Positions 8,237 through 34,884 of a DNA stretch of 64,000 nucleotides are shown piece after piece. The DNA is from Mariniblastus sp. GTDB lineage: Bacteria > Planctomycetota > Planctomycetia > Pirellulales > Pirellulaceae. How positions within the stretch are numbered: the stretch's first letter is position 1; the number at the start of each line of letters is the position of its first letter. Location of the stretch: NCBI GenBank assembly GCA_022447555.1, contig JAKVBF010000002.1:1-64000 (forward strand), in the 5' to 3' direction. Position numbers and translations under genes: made by a program. The notes under the pieces were generated by a model, which was not told where the DNA came from, did no database searches, and saw only the letters and a list, made by a program, of their open reading frames with translations.

Positions 8237-8477
8237 TCGGTCGACCCTCTAACTCGGTAGACAGCTTATTGACACGAGTCAATCATTGATATCTTTAGCC
8301 TGTTTAACGCTGGTTTGGGGGACCAATCCAGCCCTACCACCGCATGACTTGGGCTTTTACGCTGCAAAAACGGGAAACGATCACCAGACGAGAAGTCGAT
8401 AAACAACTCGCTTCACTTTGGCACGGGCGCGGGCCGCCGTCGGCCAAAAGATCGGTGCGACTCCCGATTGACTGGCA

Positions 8478-8666
8478 TTAAGATAAAATGCCTTTAATGA
8501 CGTGGGCCTCTTCTCCCACCCCCGTCAATCGCTGATCCAGAACTTGGTATTTGAACGTCAATTTTTTATGATCGATGTCCAACTGATGCAGAATGGTCGC
8601 ATTCAAATCACGAATGTGCGTCTGGTTTTCCGTAATATTGTAGCTATGATCATCGGTCGCTCTCAC
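8478..8666 (-). pseudogene. 3' remnant of a DUF1501 gene
   Basis: The 62 codons match only the C-terminal end of DUF1501 proteins: [13 protein letters not shown], then [20 protein letters not shown], then a degraded [17 protein letters not shown]. The family usually ends with TDxxGY, HDLxATILHLLGxDH, FRLTxVxGxVVxxIL. The ~400 upstream residues are missing, because the fragment begins within six bases of the end of the efflux pump gene. The C-terminal motif GRDFRLT has become LDQRLT. It is therefore a truncated, probably non-functional relic left by a rearrangement. Between 8237 and 8477 there is only a 46-codon unrecognised plus-strand frame and a small GGCATT/AATGCC hairpin. Confidence 0.72.
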
Positions 8667-26903: not shown

Positions 26904-28796
26904 GTGCCAATATCGATGATTCCCGAACCAATGAAATATTCACGCAAGCACTCATGGCTCATAACGGTCTGCCTTTTGGGGCCGCTGATCTTAACAGAAA
27001 TCGGATGCGGGCCTGCGGAGTCGACCCCAACGGCCGATAAATTATCGGAACAAGAGAGGGTTGTTGGTCAAATCGTCAATAGTGAAGAGCTGCTACTGGC
27101 CCTAAATACAGAACTCAGTGCTCTCAAAAGAAGCGCACTTAACTTGGTCGTCCCAGATCCCATAGGACGTTCACTGTTTGCTGAGCAGGTTGAATTTTCC
27201 GCTTGGAACTTCGACACCTCGACCCCCGAAGTCGCCGAATCTCGAAACCGTGAACAGCTGAGCATCTGGCCCTCGGAATTGAAAAAGGTCAAGTTCTTCG
27301 ATCATGCCAAGTTCTATATGATTCGCGGGCGTTTCGACGAGAACGATTCGGAACGTTACTACTCGGATGTCGGATTTTATGGCCTCGCCAAAACCAAAAA
27401 CCAAACTTGGTTAGCAGCCAAAGCCACCTGCGACGTTCAATGGGTGCGTGTCGGTGAGGCCAATGATTCTTGGAAAATCGACTCTTGGAAAACAAAACAA
27501 TTCAAAACCGACACATCCGACCAACTGATGTTCCGGGAAACTCTGGAATCTCTGATTGACGATCCCTCCTTAGCAAAATTACTACAAACGTCCCAGCACA
27601 TGGAATTCGCCGAACAGATTTTTCAAACCGGTGAGATACAGCTTGCTGGTCTCGAGCACCTTGCGGAAAAATTCACCCAACCCAACCTGGAACAGTACTT
27701 TCGCATCCAGCAGGCGGGACAACACCCCGGCGTGGCGATCGTCGACTTCAACAACGATGGTTGGGATGACCTTTACCTTTGCGACGAATGGCGACCCAAC
27801 CGGCTGTTGAAAAATCTTAATGGTAAGAAATTGGTTGATGTGGCCGCCGAGGTGGGCTTGGATTTGGGCCCTACGACCAGCACGATTTTTGGCGATTTTG
27901 ACAACGATGGTGACCAAGACGCTTTCGTCGGTTGTTTCTTTCAACCCTGTAAACTGATGTTGAACGAAAAGGGGACTTTTATCGACAGGACTTCCGAGTA
28001 CATCTCCGTGGACCTGCCCCAATTAACCACCTCAATCTCAGCAGCAGACTATAACAATGACGGTTTACTCGATATCTACATATCGACCTATGGGTTCCCA
28101 GCCGGTCGCAAATCCAGTCGCAGTCGCTACTGGACCGCTGACTTTTTAAACCGCTCTGAGACGAATGTGATGCGATCTAATCAGGAGGGTTCACATCGAA
28201 TCCTGAACGCTCTGGGCCCGCCAAACCTATTATTGATGAACACTGGCAATGGAGGGTTTCGACGAGCCCCAGAGAATGACGACGTCCAATTGCATCACAA
28301 TACATTCCAGTCGACCTGGTGCGATTACGATATGGATGGCGATCAAGACCTCTATGTTTGCAATGATTTCGCACCTGACTTTTTGCTGCGCAACGACGGG
28401 GAGGAAGGTTTCAAGGATGTTACCCTAGAGGCTGGAGGGGAGGACATGCTCGGATTTGGAATGGGCGCTTGTTGGGGAGACTACGATCTGGACGGTGACT
28501 TCGATCTCTATGTTTCCAACATGTACAGCAAAGCAGGTAAACGAATCACCAAGCAAGTCGATGGTTTGGATGAGCGATTTTTCAGAATGGCCACAGGGAA
28601 CCGCTTATTCTCAAATGAGGGCGGCCAGTTTCGATTGGTTCCAGACAAATCGGGAGAAGGTTCAGCGGCTGGCAAAGCTGGCTGGTCTTGGGGCGGCCAG
28701 TTCGCAGACTTCGATAATGACGGACGTCAAGACCTTTACGTATGCTCAGGCTTTTTCACCGCCCCTGAAAAATATGCATCGACGATCGATTTGTGA
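26904..28796 (+). CDS. FG-GAP (CRTAC1-like) lipoprotein, first part up to in-frame TGA
   Basis: The start is uncertain: GTG 26904, or ATG 26916/26931. The ATG at 26931 gives a signal peptide ending in a lipobox-like TEIGC. A ~220-residue N-terminal region is followed by Ca-binding FG-GAP/VCBS beta-propeller repeats: VDFNNDGWDDLY, GDFDNDGDQDAF, ADYNNDGLLDIY, CDYDMDGDQDLY, GDYDLDGDFDLY, FADFDNDGRQDLYV. The frame meets TGA at 28794-28796, just after ...KYASTIDL, in the middle of the expected domain. The next ORF (28812) is in exactly the same frame with only five codons between, so this is very probably one gene. See the following entries for the selenocysteine hypothesis. Confidence 0.85.
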   Translation: MPISMIPEPMKYSRKHSWLITVCLLGPLILTEIGCGPAESTPTADKLSEQERVVGQIVNSEELLLALNTELSALKRSALNLVVPDPIGRSLFAEQVEFSAWNFDTSTPEVAESRNREQLSIWPSELKKVKFFDHAKFYMIRGRFDENDSERYYSDVGFYGLAKTKNQTWLAAKATCDVQWVRVGEANDSWKIDSWKTKQFKTDTSDQLMFRETLESLIDDPSLAKLLQTSQHMEFAEQIFQTGEIQLAGLEHLAEKFTQPNLEQYFRIQQAGQHPGVAIVDFNNDGWDDLYLCDEWRPNRLLKNLNGKKLVDVAAEVGLDLGPTTSTIFGDFDNDGDQDAFVGCFFQPCKLMLNEKGTFIDRTSEYISVDLPQLTTSISAADYNNDGLLDIYISTYGFPAGRKSSRSRYWTADFLNRSETNVMRSNQEGSHRILNALGPPNLLLMNTGNGGFRRAPENDDVQLHHNTFQSTWCDYDMDGDQDLYVCNDFAPDFLLRNDGEEGFKDVTLEAGGEDMLGFGMGACWGDYDLDGDFDLYVSNMYSKAGKRITKQVDGLDERFFRMATGNRLFSNEGGQFRLVPDKSGEGSAAGKAGWSWGGQFADFDNDGRQDLYVCSGFFTAPEKYASTIDL

Positions 28797-28828
28797 TCCG
28801 ACTTTTGGCGCATGGTCGTGCGCACGGA
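28794..28828 (+). promoter_or_regulatory. in-frame TGA with bacterial SECIS-like hairpin (candidate selenocysteine codon)
   Basis: TGA (28794-28796) is followed by GCGCA (28808-28812), a six-base loop TGGTCG and TGCGC (28819-28823). TCCG (28797-28800) and CGGA (28825-28828) close a second, outer helix. The apical loop starts 16 bases after the TGA and contains GGUC, like the GGU-containing apical loop of the E. coli fdhF SECIS. Stem and distance fall inside the usual bacterial SECIS limits. A nonsense mutation would not predict such a structure, but hairpins of this size do occur by chance. Confidence 0.5.
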
Positions 28829-29966
28829 CAACCAGCTGGGGCAAGAATTTTCCGAGTCTAAAAAATGGGATGCGGACGCAAGCGAACTTTACAACTTCAT
28901 TGAAGAGGTGGAAGTCGATGGAGAAATACAACGGATTGTAAGCTCACAGAGCGGGAACGAAAGAAATCACCTGTTCTTGAATCAGGATGACGCGGAGCTG
29001 AAAGATGTTTCGTTGATATCGGGGCTGGACTCAATCGCTGACGGTCGAGCGAACGCCGTATGGGACTTTGATCGTGATGGCCATCAAGACATCGTCCTTC
29101 TCAATGCCAACAATCCTTTTTTGCAGCTTTTCCACAACCAGCTGAAATCGACAGACCCAAACCATTCGAATTTTATTGCGGTTCAGCTCACAGGTGGTAA
29201 TCTCACAGGGCAAGCATCCAACGAGTGGAGTAATCGAGACGGGATTGGCGCCGTGATCACTGTCAAAGCAGGTGAGCACTCTTACCTGCGTGAAGCGCGG
29301 GCCGGAGAGGGGTTCGCTGCTCAAAATAGTAAAATCATGCTAGTCGGGATTGGGGACCAAACATCAGCCCTACTGAGTGTTCGATGGCCTTCAGGAAAGA
29401 CCATTGAGTACGGCATCGTTTCAGCCGGTAAACTAGCCCATTGCTATGAAGATAAATCATCCACTTTTGACCTTTCGGGAATCGAGTTGACTTCTTATGC
29501 GGCCCGAGATCCTTTTGTGGAAAAAGACGTCGTGGTCGACCGGGGCACCTTTCAATTAGAACAGTGGAACAGCGTTGTCTCCGACAAGACACAGTTAATC
29601 TTGTACGTCACCATGGCCACTTGGTGTCCCAATTGCAAAAAGAATCAACCGCTAGTGACCCTTTTACGCGAGCAATTTGGCGACCAGATCGAACTCATTG
29701 GAATTCCTGTCGATCCCGAGGAACAGCCCAGCCAGCTGGCCGATTATCGCCAGAAATACAAACCTGCTTACAAACTTCTCGATCCGATTTCATCCAGTAA
29801 GCGTGCGGAAATCGAAACACTGATTACCTCGCTCTCCCAGCAGGGAGCGCTACCCAGCACCTTGATCACCGACCGTCGAGGACGGGTACTGGACGCTATG
29901 GGTGGCATCCCGAGTAGCTCGACCGTTGCAAGATTGTTGGAAGGCCTTCCAAAGCTCACCCAATAG
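28812..29966 (+). CDS. ASPIC/UnbV and thioredoxin-like C-terminal part of the same protein
   Basis: In the same frame as the preceding ORF, so both are best read as one ~1,011-residue protein with residue ~622 at the TGA. This part continues with a last FG-GAP unit (VWDFDRDGHQDIVLLNANN). The ASPIC/UnbV domain follows (NRDGIGAVITVKAGEHSYLR, ARAGEGFAAQNSKIML, VRWPSGKTIEYG). The C-terminal ~150 residues form a thioredoxin-like domain with the CxxC active site MATWCPNCKKNQP and a GALPSTLITDRRGRVLDAMGG strand. The fusion of a redoxin with an extracellular adhesion-like propeller suggests thiol/redox chemistry outside the cytoplasm. If read separately it would begin at ATG 28812, without an SD. Confidence 0.85.
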   Translation: MVVRTDNQLGQEFSESKKWDADASELYNFIEEVEVDGEIQRIVSSQSGNERNHLFLNQDDAELKDVSLISGLDSIADGRANAVWDFDRDGHQDIVLLNANNPFLQLFHNQLKSTDPNHSNFIAVQLTGGNLTGQASNEWSNRDGIGAVITVKAGEHSYLREARAGEGFAAQNSKIMLVGIGDQTSALLSVRWPSGKTIEYGIVSAGKLAHCYEDKSSTFDLSGIELTSYAARDPFVEKDVVVDRGTFQLEQWNSVVSDKTQLILYVTMATWCPNCKKNQPLVTLLREQFGDQIELIGIPVDPEEQPSQLADYRQKYKPAYKLLDPISSSKRAEIETLITSLSQQGALPSTLITDRRGRVLDAMGGIPSSSTVARLLEGLPKLTQ

Positions 29967-32060: not shown

Positions 32061-33257
32061 TCATTGATCAGAGGGCTTCTTTCCTAGCAGATTGAATAAC
32101 AGATAAGTACCACTCTTCCCCGCCACTGCAATGTCCATCCGTCCATCCTGATTCAAATCAGCTGTTCGGATTTGGAGGCCCGTTCCGACCGTCCCACGAT
32201 CGATCACGTGTTTTTCAAATTGCTGCTGCTTTGGCAGCCACCGATAGTAAAAGAGACACGGCGGTTCCCGCCCGCCAGGGTCTTTGCCATTATGAGCGTA
32301 AACTCGCTTGCCCGTAATCAATTCCGGTTGACCGTCCCCATCCAAGTCGGCCAGATGAAGCGCATGAGGCTGTGAGAATTCTTTATCGATCACCTGCTTG
32401 TTCCACCGAGTGGTCCCGTCGGCCAGAGGAGGCAGCTGCTCCCATAGGAACAGACCGTAATCGTGACCTTTACCGATGATCACATCGGGTCTTTGGTCAC
32501 CGTTCCAATCTCGGACCAGTATTGGGAGGCTGGCGTGGACATTCCAATCAGGATGAAAAGGCCAATTACTCTCGATCGTTTTCTCATTTGTCAGGCCGGG
32601 GTTCTCAAACCAACCGTTGCCGACCAGGATATCCATATCACCATCGCCGTCGAGGTCACCCGAGCCCATACCGTGAGAATTCCCCTTCTCACTAATCCGC
32701 ACCCGTTCCATTTGGTAAGCCGCTGTGGCCGTCTTTGACGAAACCACGAATTTCCAAATATTCATTGGCGCGTCCTGCCCCCACGTATTGACTAGCCATT
32801 CGGGACGGCCGTCCTGAGAGAGGTCAACCAACAGCTGCCCCTCATTCTGACTGTCCCCGGTATCGACCAACAACTCCTTCTTCCACATTAAACCGAGACT
32901 CAAACCCTCAGCACCGGGGTTGCGGTACCAATTAACCTCACTCGGTAGAAAGGAACCCGCCACCACATCCATCCAGCCGTCACGATCGACGTCCATTGCA
33001 AAGTCACCATTGCTTTCCACATAGCCATTCCAGTCTTTGATATCGCGCACCGGGCGAGGCGTGAAATGAGGCGCTGCGTACCAATTACGTCCCGCGATCA
33101 CATCCAGCTTTCCATCTCTATTGAAATCAGCAACGTCAATCCCCTCGTTGGCATCAACCGTTAGTTGACGAATATCCCATCGAATCTCTTGCGAGCACAA
33201 CGAAGTCGCCGCGCAACACAGCGTAAAAAGCAAAACTAGAGACAGAGCCTGTGGCAT
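32061..33257 (-). CDS. exported FG-GAP/VCBS-repeat protein
   Basis: 398 residues from ATG 33257 with AAGGAA as SD. A signal peptide MPQALSLVLLFTLCCAATSLC is followed by at least five Ca-binding repeats: ADFNRDGKLDVIAGRNW, DVDRDGWMDVVAGSF, GDLDGDGDMDILVGNGW, RDWNGDQRPDVIIGKGHDY, ADLDGDGQPELITGKRV, ADLNQDGRMDIAVAG. This makes a beta-propeller of the FG-GAP type, with no ASPIC/UnbV or redox domain and no obvious enzyme signature. In planctomycetes such proteins are often extracellular and found near sugar-catabolic genes; function unknown. Confidence 0.88.
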   Translation of the reverse strand: MPQALSLVLLFTLCCAATSLCSQEIRWDIRQLTVDANEGIDVADFNRDGKLDVIAGRNWYAAPHFTPRPVRDIKDWNGYVESNGDFAMDVDRDGWMDVVAGSFLPSEVNWYRNPGAEGLSLGLMWKKELLVDTGDSQNEGQLLVDLSQDGRPEWLVNTWGQDAPMNIWKFVVSSKTATAAYQMERVRISEKGNSHGMGSGDLDGDGDMDILVGNGWFENPGLTNEKTIESNWPFHPDWNVHASLPILVRDWNGDQRPDVIIGKGHDYGLFLWEQLPPLADGTTRWNKQVIDKEFSQPHALHLADLDGDGQPELITGKRVYAHNGKDPGGREPPCLFYYRWLPKQQQFEKHVIDRGTVGTGLQIRTADLNQDGRMDIAVAGKSGTYLLFNLLGKKPSDQ

Positions 33258-33387: not shown

Positions 33388-34884
33388 TCATAGTCCCGAT
33401 AAGAAATTATCCGCGTGTTGCAAATGTTCTGACCTTTTTACCGGATCCATTTTTTTCGCCATCGCACACATCATCGCCCACCTAGGATTTTTGGCTAGAT
33501 CATCGACATGCCGCCAAATCCACCGCCAATACAATCCATCCCAAATCTGACACCAATCGTCTTTGGGGTAGTGACTCATTTTACGAACGTAAGCTGATCC
33601 AGAAAAATACGGCTTCGTCGTGATCAAACCTCCATCCGCGTGTTGGCTCATCGCATAGACATTAGGAACCATCACCCAGTCATAACTGTCCACGAACATC
33701 TCCATGAACCAAAGGTAAATCTCATCCGGATCGAACTCGCACAAGAACATGAAACCACCCAAAACCATGAGTCGTTCAATATGGTGACAGTACCCGGTAT
33801 CCAGTATCCGACGAATCGCATCATCAATGGGCAAAAGCCCCGTGGTTCCATCGTAAAAACTTGCGGGGATCGAACGCTGGTGGTTCCAGTGGTTAGTGGT
33901 TCTCATGGTGGCACCGAGGTCTTCATAAGTGGCTCTCATGAACTCTCGCCACCCAATGACTTGGCGAACGAAGCCTTCCAAAGAATTGAGCGGGATGGTC
34001 GATCGTTCACCATACTCAAGTGCCGCTGAGAGTACAGCAGCCGGTGTCAACAACCCGATATTCAGCATCGGAGTAAGGACGCTGTGCCATAGCCAACACT
34101 CATTCTGCTCGATGGCGTCCTCATAGTCACCGAATAATGCAAATCGTTGGTGAAGGAATTGATTTAACCATGAGCGAGCCGCCTCATGAGAAGTCGGGTA
34201 GATTAACTGATCAATCGAGCCGGGGTGGTCGGGGAAATGTTGATTCACATGGTCGCGAGCGGCCAAGTCAATCAGGTCGTGATCGGCAGGCTCTAATTGA
34301 GGTATCCCGGAAAGCACACGTTTCGGAATTTTTTTTCGGTTGTCCTGATCAAAACTCCACTGGCCCCCGACAGGCTGATCACCGTCCATAAGAACACCTA
34401 AACGCCGCCGCTGATGTTTGTAGAAATCTGCCATGAACCACCGCTTCTTGTCCGCTCGGTAGTTTGTATTTTCCTGACCACTGTTTAAAAATAGCGGCGT
34501 TTCGATCACCTCTCGCTCGATCTCAAATTTTCGGCAGTACCTATCCAATCGCTTCTCCAACGTATGATCAACGACGTCGGCAATGATGACTCGGCCTAGA
34601 GAATCTTGGAACGCCGTTGCCAGATAGGACTCGAGAACGTTTTCTTCTTCAGCATATTCCACATAATCCACCACCCAACCCTGCTGAGTGAGCTTTTCTG
34701 CGTGCCGCTTCATCGTTGCACGGTGCATCCACAATTTTTGCTTATGGAACTTGGCAGGGTACTGAGCATCGCCAAAAAATAGACTGTCCTCGATGAGAGC
34801 GATTCGCTCGGGTTGCAAGGAGATCCCGGGATGTTGCTCAAACAGCTGATTTGGGAAAATCAGAAGGATGGAGTTTGCCGACAT
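33388..34884 (-). CDS. cryptochrome/photolyase-related protein (PhrB-like, no Fe-S cysteine pattern)
   Basis: 498 residues from ATG 34884. N-terminal Rossmann-like domain opens SILLIFPNQLFE. The C-terminal FAD domain has the PhrB-like RRILDTGYCHHIERLMVLGGFM, SYDWVMVPNVYAMSQHADGG and KPYFSGSAYVRKMSHY. DNA photolyases of this group repair (6-4) or CPD lesions using light and FAD, and many also carry a [4Fe-4S] cluster held by four cysteines. Here the CxxC...ACPFN segment of PhrB is replaced by PKDDWCQIWDGLYWRW, so the usual cluster is probably absent. Cytoplasmic. It could be a photoreceptor rather than a repair enzyme. Confidence 0.85.
   Translation of the reverse strand: MSANSILLIFPNQLFEQHPGISLQPERIALIEDSLFFGDAQYPAKFHKQKLWMHRATMKRHAEKLTQQGWVVDYVEYAEEENVLESYLATAFQDSLGRVIIADVVDHTLEKRLDRYCRKFEIEREVIETPLFLNSGQENTNYRADKKRWFMADFYKHQRRRLGVLMDGDQPVGGQWSFDQDNRKKIPKRVLSGIPQLEPADHDLIDLAARDHVNQHFPDHPGSIDQLIYPTSHEAARSWLNQFLHQRFALFGDYEDAIEQNECWLWHSVLTPMLNIGLLTPAAVLSAALEYGERSTIPLNSLEGFVRQVIGWREFMRATYEDLGATMRTTNHWNHQRSIPASFYDGTTGLLPIDDAIRRILDTGYCHHIERLMVLGGFMFLCEFDPDEIYLWFMEMFVDSYDWVMVPNVYAMSQHADGGLITTKPYFSGSAYVRKMSHYPKDDWCQIWDGLYWRWIWRHVDDLAKNPRWAMMCAMAKKMDPVKRSEHLQHADNFLSGL

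Follow-up and report, generated by a model that had tools for sequence, protein, structure and literature searches.

A candidate selenoprotein with a CRTAC1-like propeller and a fused thioredoxin domain in Mariniblastus sp.

The read-through gene and its predicted product

Here, we describe a gene at positions 26904–29966 of a 64,000-nucleotide stretch of Mariniblastus sp. DNA (assembly GCA_022447555.1, contig JAKVBF010000002.1, positions 1 to 64,000; hereafter the window) that is interrupted by an in-frame TGA codon on the forward strand. An earlier, sequence-only reading of the window had noted two open reading frames (ORFs) in the same frame, and the coordinates agree: ORF 1 (26904–28796) is terminated by the TGA, ORF 2 runs from an ATG at 28812 to 29966, and the TGA and five sense codons lie between their open parts. 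When the two are translated through the TGA (28794–28796), they form a protein of 1020 amino acids, counted from a GTG to a TAG stop, with selenocysteine (Sec, U) as residue 631. By inspection, the ATG at 26931 (Met10) is the likely start. Past the TGA, 389 codons are open, which by simple arithmetic has a chance of about 8e-9 if codons are random and each is open with a probability of 61/64. TGA terminates 10 of the 33 stretches in the window that are open for at least 250 codons in any frame, the read-through gene's own included. From the sequence comparisons below, we consider it very probable that the locus is a single bacterial selenoprotein gene in which the UGA is decoded as Sec.

All features of the protein are encoded on the forward strand. 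Its N terminus up to Cys35 (26931–27008) resembles a signal peptide or lipoprotein signal. The lipobox that had been proposed here did not hold up, as the window protein has E-I-G-C by inspection, which is not canonical; the relative L024 has LLGC at this position. The secondary structure predicted by AlphaFold2 indicates an N-terminal helix and an alpha+beta domain (residues ~49–205, 27048–27518), which may be NTF2-like, with weak Foldseek rows for 3b8l and LinA (E 3e-4 to 5e-4). The remainder of the proposed architecture was recovered in order with Pfam. The CRTAC1-like FG-GAP beta-propeller (residues ~208–750, 27525–29153), which contains the TGA, matches FG-GAP_3 with 117 bits (Pfam cut-off 26.9) as well as the structure 9etn. 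It is followed by an ASPIC/UnbV domain (residues 780–835, 29241–29408; PF07593, 40.9 bits, cut-off 23.4) and a TlpA/ResA/DsbE-like thioredoxin domain (residues ~884–1013, 29553–29942). The latter was found by Pfam (Thioredoxin at 884–958, 27.1 bits, cut-off 23.5), by profile comparison (nearest ResA and TlpA) and by Foldseek (DsbE, DsbF and TlpA), and scored below the NCBIfam cut-offs for ResA, TlpA and DsbE. Its CxxC motif is W907-C908-P-N-C911 (29625–29636), and a C-terminal CxxC domain is thus a feature that the window protein shares with thioredoxin domains of the TlpA/ResA/DsbE type.

The AlphaFold2 model, made from the window protein and 28 named relatives, has a mean pLDDT of 87.0 and a pTM of 0.88. 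Residue 631 opens a predicted helix (631–640) right behind a strand (625–629). The top structural match is CRTAC1 (9etn; Foldseek E 2e-27, VIA Z 33.5), which superposes within model residues 207–851 with an rmsd of 2.4 over 455 residues and 21% identity, and the second-best match is LGI1 (Z 23.7). CRTAC1 and the bacterial FG-GAP/ASPIC (UnbV) proteins likewise have an FG-GAP propeller followed by ASPIC. Compared with proteins of this type, the family profile gives good matches to ASPIC and to one stretch of the propeller, and a weak match to a second stretch. The matched CRTAC1 chain is 551 residues long, shorter than the window protein, and its alignment ends ahead of the thioredoxin domain, at model residue 851. 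As for the DLUSxxWR loop, the bacterial genes of this comparison were the only ones in which it was seen. The sequence-only reading had considered a catalytic Sec plausible on account of the redox domain in the same protein. This domain is indeed present, but the Sec lies outside it, in the propeller, 277 residues before the CxxC. Therefore, we picture two partners rather than a catalytic Sec within a redox domain.

Conservation of the TGA codon and of the adjoining hairpin

As the query against 296 genomes of the same order, we used the protein with C in place of the Sec; 180 genomes matched (E 0.001). Because the queries bore C at this site, Cys forms were not disfavoured in the searches. 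The codon aligned to query position 631 was TGA in all 30 best loci (one per genome); 40 further regions had TGA (14), another codon (8) or a gap (3) at the site, or were unaligned there (15). Among named genomes (GTDB 220), we considered the best 80 of at least 433 confirmed loci, of which 60 had TGA, six had another codon and 14 were unaligned over the site; that is, TGA was present in 60 of the 66 aligned loci of this best-matching set. The TGA carriers are metagenome-assembled genomes (MAGs) titled as groups of Planctomycetota, Verrucomicrobiota, Acidobacteriota and Gemmatimonadetes. By profile at E 1e-20, the window genome itself contains five family members, one of them in two pieces, and the TGA is present in every one.

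With duplicates removed and 20 regions from a phylum-wide search added, 144 distinct genes, including the window gene, were aligned at the Sec column. TGA is found in 110 of these, Cys in three, and another residue or a gap in 31. The 34 genes without TGA have Glu (8), Ala (6), Cys (3), Gly (3), a gap (3), Asp, Ser, Gln or Arg (2 each), or Ile, Phe or Asn (1 each). What homologues carry at the TGA had been named as a check of the selenoprotein proposal, and they mostly have the same codon; the three with Cys (L072, L073 and L076) are all distant. A Glu codon lies exactly at the Sec site in L095 and L101 (Verrucomicrobia), L174–L177, L182 and L184, with the SxxWR context mostly kept.

The protein sequence around U divides 105 distinct stretches, each from the UGA to position +33, into three classes. 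The window gene belongs to class A (20 stretches), with the motif DLUSxxWRxVVR. Class B (73 stretches) has the motif DLUSFxWRQVVS, and its proteins are mostly ~920–1480 residues long from stop to stop; a Pfam scan of three members found a thioredoxin domain and tetratricopeptide repeats (TPRs) in two. Class C (12 stretches) has the motif PDGUxCxWxAVVS and proteins of ~790–1010 residues where complete. Some loci contain several selenoprotein genes in tandem: three class-A genes with a Cys at U+2 (UxC) in a Planctomycetota MAG (bin33; L098:1-7604), the first of which overruns the locus start, and two genes each in L097 and in G285 (L054). An extra in-frame TGA in the class-C gene L070 (G282:C168) was rejected as a second Sec, since ordinary residues stand at this position in three sister sequences, and is likely an assembly error or the mark of a decaying copy. 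Also rejected was a record-size selenoproteome in genomes with 194–281 first-look candidates: in three of them, a profile search that scored 150 of 274–393 candidates gave 24, 5 and 12 matches, some of which are pieces.

Directly behind the TGA, at 28808–28823 on the forward strand, is a candidate apical hairpin of a bacterial selenocysteine insertion sequence (SECIS). The sequence-only reading had placed a hairpin of 5 base pairs (bp) with a 6-base loop here. Its position was confirmed, whereas folding yielded a 6-bp stem (28808–28813/28818–28823) with a loop-closing U.G pair and the tetraloop GGUC (28814–28817), separated from the UGA by 17 nucleotides (28797–28813). The bacterial SECIS model of a 2026 review (PMC13188914) asks for an upper stem of 4–16 bp with an apical loop of 3–9 nucleotides, a G within the first two loop positions, a minimum free energy of at most -7.5 kcal/mol, and a distance of 16–37 nucleotides from the UGA to the apical loop. 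The window hairpin is inside all four of these limits, as had been claimed for usual bacterial limits: stem and loop are 6 bp and 4 nucleotides, GGUC supplies the G, the spacing is 17 nucleotides, and the energy is -8.8 for the hairpin alone (centroid) and -12.3 for a 48-mer. An outer helix of TCCG with CGGA, which had been included in the proposed element, was rejected: it occurs in the single window fold but is unconserved, the paired fraction of cells being 38.8% over the 20 stretches of class A and 35.6% in shuffles. The SECIS of Escherichia coli fdhF has a short stem, a GGU-type loop and a comparable distance past the UGA. Unlike in fdhF, the 6-bp stem of the window lacks a bulged U, and the family has two registers, with 4- and 5-nucleotide loops, as well as a third class whose loop differs.

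The stem register tracks the protein class, with the 4-nucleotide loop in class A and the 5-nucleotide loop in class B, and exceptions in L148 (two genes) and L157. The class-B stem (n = 73) has 95.4% of its cells paired, versus 87.6 ± 0.8 in shuffles, 21 double-changed cells versus 3.4 ± 1.8, and a covariation of 0.288 versus 0.120. None of 500 shuffles was as high in any of these measures, and the stem beats all slid registers; all 73 stretches were kept, including the misfitting L148 (twice) and L157. In class A (n = 20), 91.7% of cells are paired, with double changes in two pairs. The two Val codons of the motif in classes A and B are GTC in 72 of 87 cases and then GTG in 77 of 84; the background for the two codons within these genes is 39% and 33%. 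The two L148 genes (L148:5994-6029 and 8455-8490, in an acidobacterial MAG) have the motif DLULP...AVAHI and a different stretch past the UGA, and may represent a fourth SECIS class.

The RNA model R1 was built from alignment A5 without any gene of the window genome, and its scan of the 4.19 Mb genome (150 of 1413 first-look candidates scored) placed exactly the three class-B genes of the genome on top, with E-values of 1e-5, 2.8e-5 and 1.3e-3 and 0.21 for the next candidate. Model R2, which was built with the two class-A loci of the genome, the window's included, ranks those two loci first; within the window, the hairpin scores 43.1 bits and the runner-up 16.3. Two candidates for additional SECIS elements, at C23:110600 and C60:48096 (E 0.2–0.8), were lightly examined and put down to chance. 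Rfam at gathering scores found one tRNA in the window and nothing else.

Selenocysteine machinery, proposed thiol partners and rival explanations

The window genome, which is in 62 contigs and 97.5% complete, encodes the machinery that the proposal would need: selB (357.9 bits, curated cut-off 242.25), selA (569 bits, cut-off 267.9), selD (273.2 bits, cut-off 125) and tRNA-Sec (68.6 bits, cut-off 47) all exceed their curated cut-offs. In the order, selB (E 1e-60) is present in 36 of 40 genomes with a site-verified TGA versus 39 of 256 others (Fisher 6e-21, relatedness ignored). In the phylum (392 genomes), it is present in 68 of 74 genomes with a TGA hit among the matches listed versus 168 of 318 (5e-11); here, TGA was taken from these matches and not site by site. 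The six phylum genomes with TGA but without a selB hit (G440, G517, G560, G572, G596 and G637) are all less than 90% complete. Decaying copies were considered for the selB-less G234 and rejected, as the extra stops fall beyond the end of the aligned protein.

Next, we focused on thiols that could act as partners of the Sec. The partner table comprises 111 TGA members and was deduplicated slightly differently from the 144-gene set. The thioredoxin domain is absent from all 24 UxC members. Among the 87 members without UxC, 81 have the domain, three are cut by the locus end, and three lack it (L024 and, twice, L148). Nearly every TGA member therefore has either a fused thioredoxin domain or UxC, and none of the 111 has both. 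This either-or pattern suggests that the Sec has a redox role and works together with a thiol. The CxxC of the thioredoxin domain is kept in 80 of the 81 Sec members that have it, the remaining one being CxxS. By alignment, it is kept in three of 16 non-Sec members with the domain; in four of these 16 rows, the CxxC columns are uncovered, yet the stretch contains no C..C, and L184 is weakly aligned with a C..C elsewhere. The 16 non-Sec rows are interspersed among Sec rows on an unrooted tree, and Sec looks like it has been lost repeatedly. Where Sec has been lost from near relatives, Glu, Asp, Ala or Gln takes its place and the CxxC has mostly disappeared as well, so that any redox function may hinge on selenium as such.

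Based on these patterns, we propose the following mechanism. The UGA at 28794–28796 would be decoded as Sec by SelB and tRNA-Sec, directed by the adjoining hairpin, and the product would probably be exported. The Sec is predicted to begin a helix located in a propeller loop, a position that would favour a reactive selenolate. With the propeller holding a substrate that is oxidised or electrophilic, this selenolate would attack it or carry out redox chemistry on it. The selenenyl form that results would then be reduced by the chain's own CxxC or, in relatives that lack the thioredoxin domain, by the Cys at Sec+2. That a propeller selenolate is recycled by a thiol pair in this way seems to us a fairly probable reading of the sequences.

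Several observations weigh against this interpretation of the gene and its mechanism. The 48-nucleotide window fold alone is no better than shuffles (z 0.42), and the case for the hairpin is therefore comparative. Covariation in class A is weakly above shuffles, 36 of 500 being as high, and a register slid by +2 has more of it (0.242 versus 0.196), but with 70% of cells paired versus 91.7%. The class-C hairpin (n = 11) is 97% paired and almost invariant, and so carries no covariation information. From the phylum search, 17 homologues without TGA were retrieved, out of at least 23 such genes; they are 37–50% identical to a class-B query, and their residues at the site are Glu (6), Ala (4), Gln (2), Arg (2), Asp (1), Ser (1) and Asn (1). 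None of the 17 has Cys, which is unusual for a redox Sec. Four of the 40 genomes of the order with a verified TGA have no selB hit: G234 (99% complete), G288 (91%), G057 (70%) and G074 (65%). The co-occurrence figures count unexamined hits as 'others', and neither they nor the partner table are corrected for relatedness. On the unrooted tree (97 rows), the Sec state requires at least six changes, three of them forced by starred branches, and CxxC five. A paired test of Sec and CxxC, with three pairs on starred branches and low power, was not significant (median p 0.5), with a mean of 1.8 pairs changing the same way and 0 the opposite way.

The residues that replace Sec bear on a further possibility within the selenoprotein interpretation, namely that the Sec is not catalytic and that its selenolate serves as a negative charge or a metal ligand in the propeller. 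Glu and Asp account for eight and two of the non-TGA sites in the 144-gene set, and Glu also occurs in L095 and L101, two verrucomicrobial proteins of class A in which the CxxC is retained; such a role of the Sec would explain its replacement by Glu or Asp. However, Ala, Gln, Ser and Arg also occur at the site, and the replacements may be mere decay. The complementarity of UxC and CxxC, and the absence of CxxC from most non-Sec members, favour a redox role, and we regard a non-catalytic Sec as rather unlikely. A hairpin behind a stop codon can increase readthrough. A near-cognate tRNA could thus read the UGA with another amino acid, aided by the hairpin and without any Sec, and the few TGA genomes without a selB hit would agree with this. 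Yet the hairpin lies within the four SECIS limits of PMC13188914, selB co-occurs with the TGA, and three homologues have Cys at the site, whereas Trp is found in none of the 34 non-TGA genes, which makes such readthrough very improbable.

Still less probable is the production of two proteins, with a stop at the TGA and a restart at the ATG at 28812. ORF 2 does begin with an ATG in the window genome, but this codon is the Met of WRMVV, for which 19 other class-A members compared have Thr, Ser, Ala or Glu. As the CRTAC1 alignment (model residues 207–851) spans the site, a cut there would split the propeller. The division of the assembly into 62 contigs could be held to favour a pseudogene or a sequencing error, an explanation to which we give almost no credence: the same TGA is present in all five members in the genome, in two genomes of the same genus and in 110 of 144 genes overall. 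The concern about raw-read errors raised in the sequence-only reading is answered by the paralogues and the two same-genus genomes, because a sequencing error shared by all of them is very unlikely. The reading that we retain is thus that of one gene with a Sec codon.

Gene neighbourhood, known selenoproteins and significance

Scans of ten neighbours of six loci and seven neighbours in the window revealed no common neighbour, apart from a possible TonB-dependent receptor in two MAGs. In L094:159-3794 (titled Gemmatimonadetes), a TonB-dependent receptor (Pfam) and a short uncharacterised gene lie upstream of the selenoprotein gene, and L099:90-3798 (BD2-11 clade) has a frame of the same size as this receptor and a short uncharacterised gene upstream. 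The large neighbours at L096:8346-11921 and L101:7714-11154(-) are further FG-GAP proteins, with ASPIC and TPR, respectively. In the window, the reverse strand encodes a separate 398-residue FG-GAP protein near the selenoprotein gene (32061–33257), for which Pfam gave no ASPIC hit, and a deoxyribodipyrimidine photo-lyase-related protein (DPRP; 33388–34884), which is not adjacent to it.

Like known bacterial selenoprotein genes, whose products have UxxC, CxxU, CxU or UxC motifs, the genes described here have a UGA and a downstream hairpin, and part of the family has UxC. In PMC13188914, most characterised selenoproteins are stated to have a thioredoxin-like fold, and Table 1 lists 119 prokaryotic selenoprotein families, none of which, as far as the table was accessible to us, has FG-GAP, ASPIC or the DLUSxxWRxVV motif. 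That the sequence-only reading knew of no described selenoprotein of this architecture is in line with this table. Unlike the listed 'UGC-containing TlpA' and 'Prx-like thiol:disulfide oxidoreductase' families, the thioredoxin domain keeps both Cys residues here and the Sec is in another domain. No model in NCBIfam 20.0 matches the Sec region in the six members scanned. In the literature, as far as it was accessible to us, no FG-GAP, ASPIC, UnbV, CRTAC1 or VCBS selenoprotein was found; an earlier listing in candidate tables is possible, such as S9 Table of PMC4807772, which contains selenoprotein candidates of two planctomycetes.

On balance, we lean towards the view that these genes form an uncatalogued and widespread superfamily of extracytoplasmic selenoproteins, with Sec on a CRTAC1-like propeller rather than on a thioredoxin-type or metal-cofactor fold, a fused thioredoxin domain or a Cys at +2, and loss of Sec from near relatives without exchange for Cys. 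More than 100 distinct genes in the four phyla named above are probably annotated as two pieces, and their use of selenium would therefore be missed. If our reading is correct, a Sec borne by a large exported propeller, together with a thioredoxin domain on the same chain, would place selenium chemistry in a new context, and the either-or pattern of thiol partners provides a directly testable mechanism. PMC13188914 names the reason why Sec is retained as an open question, and the replacements other than Cys at the Sec site offer a natural test of why it is kept. This family could be a main reason why some Planctomycetota and Verrucomicrobiota have retained their Sec machinery.

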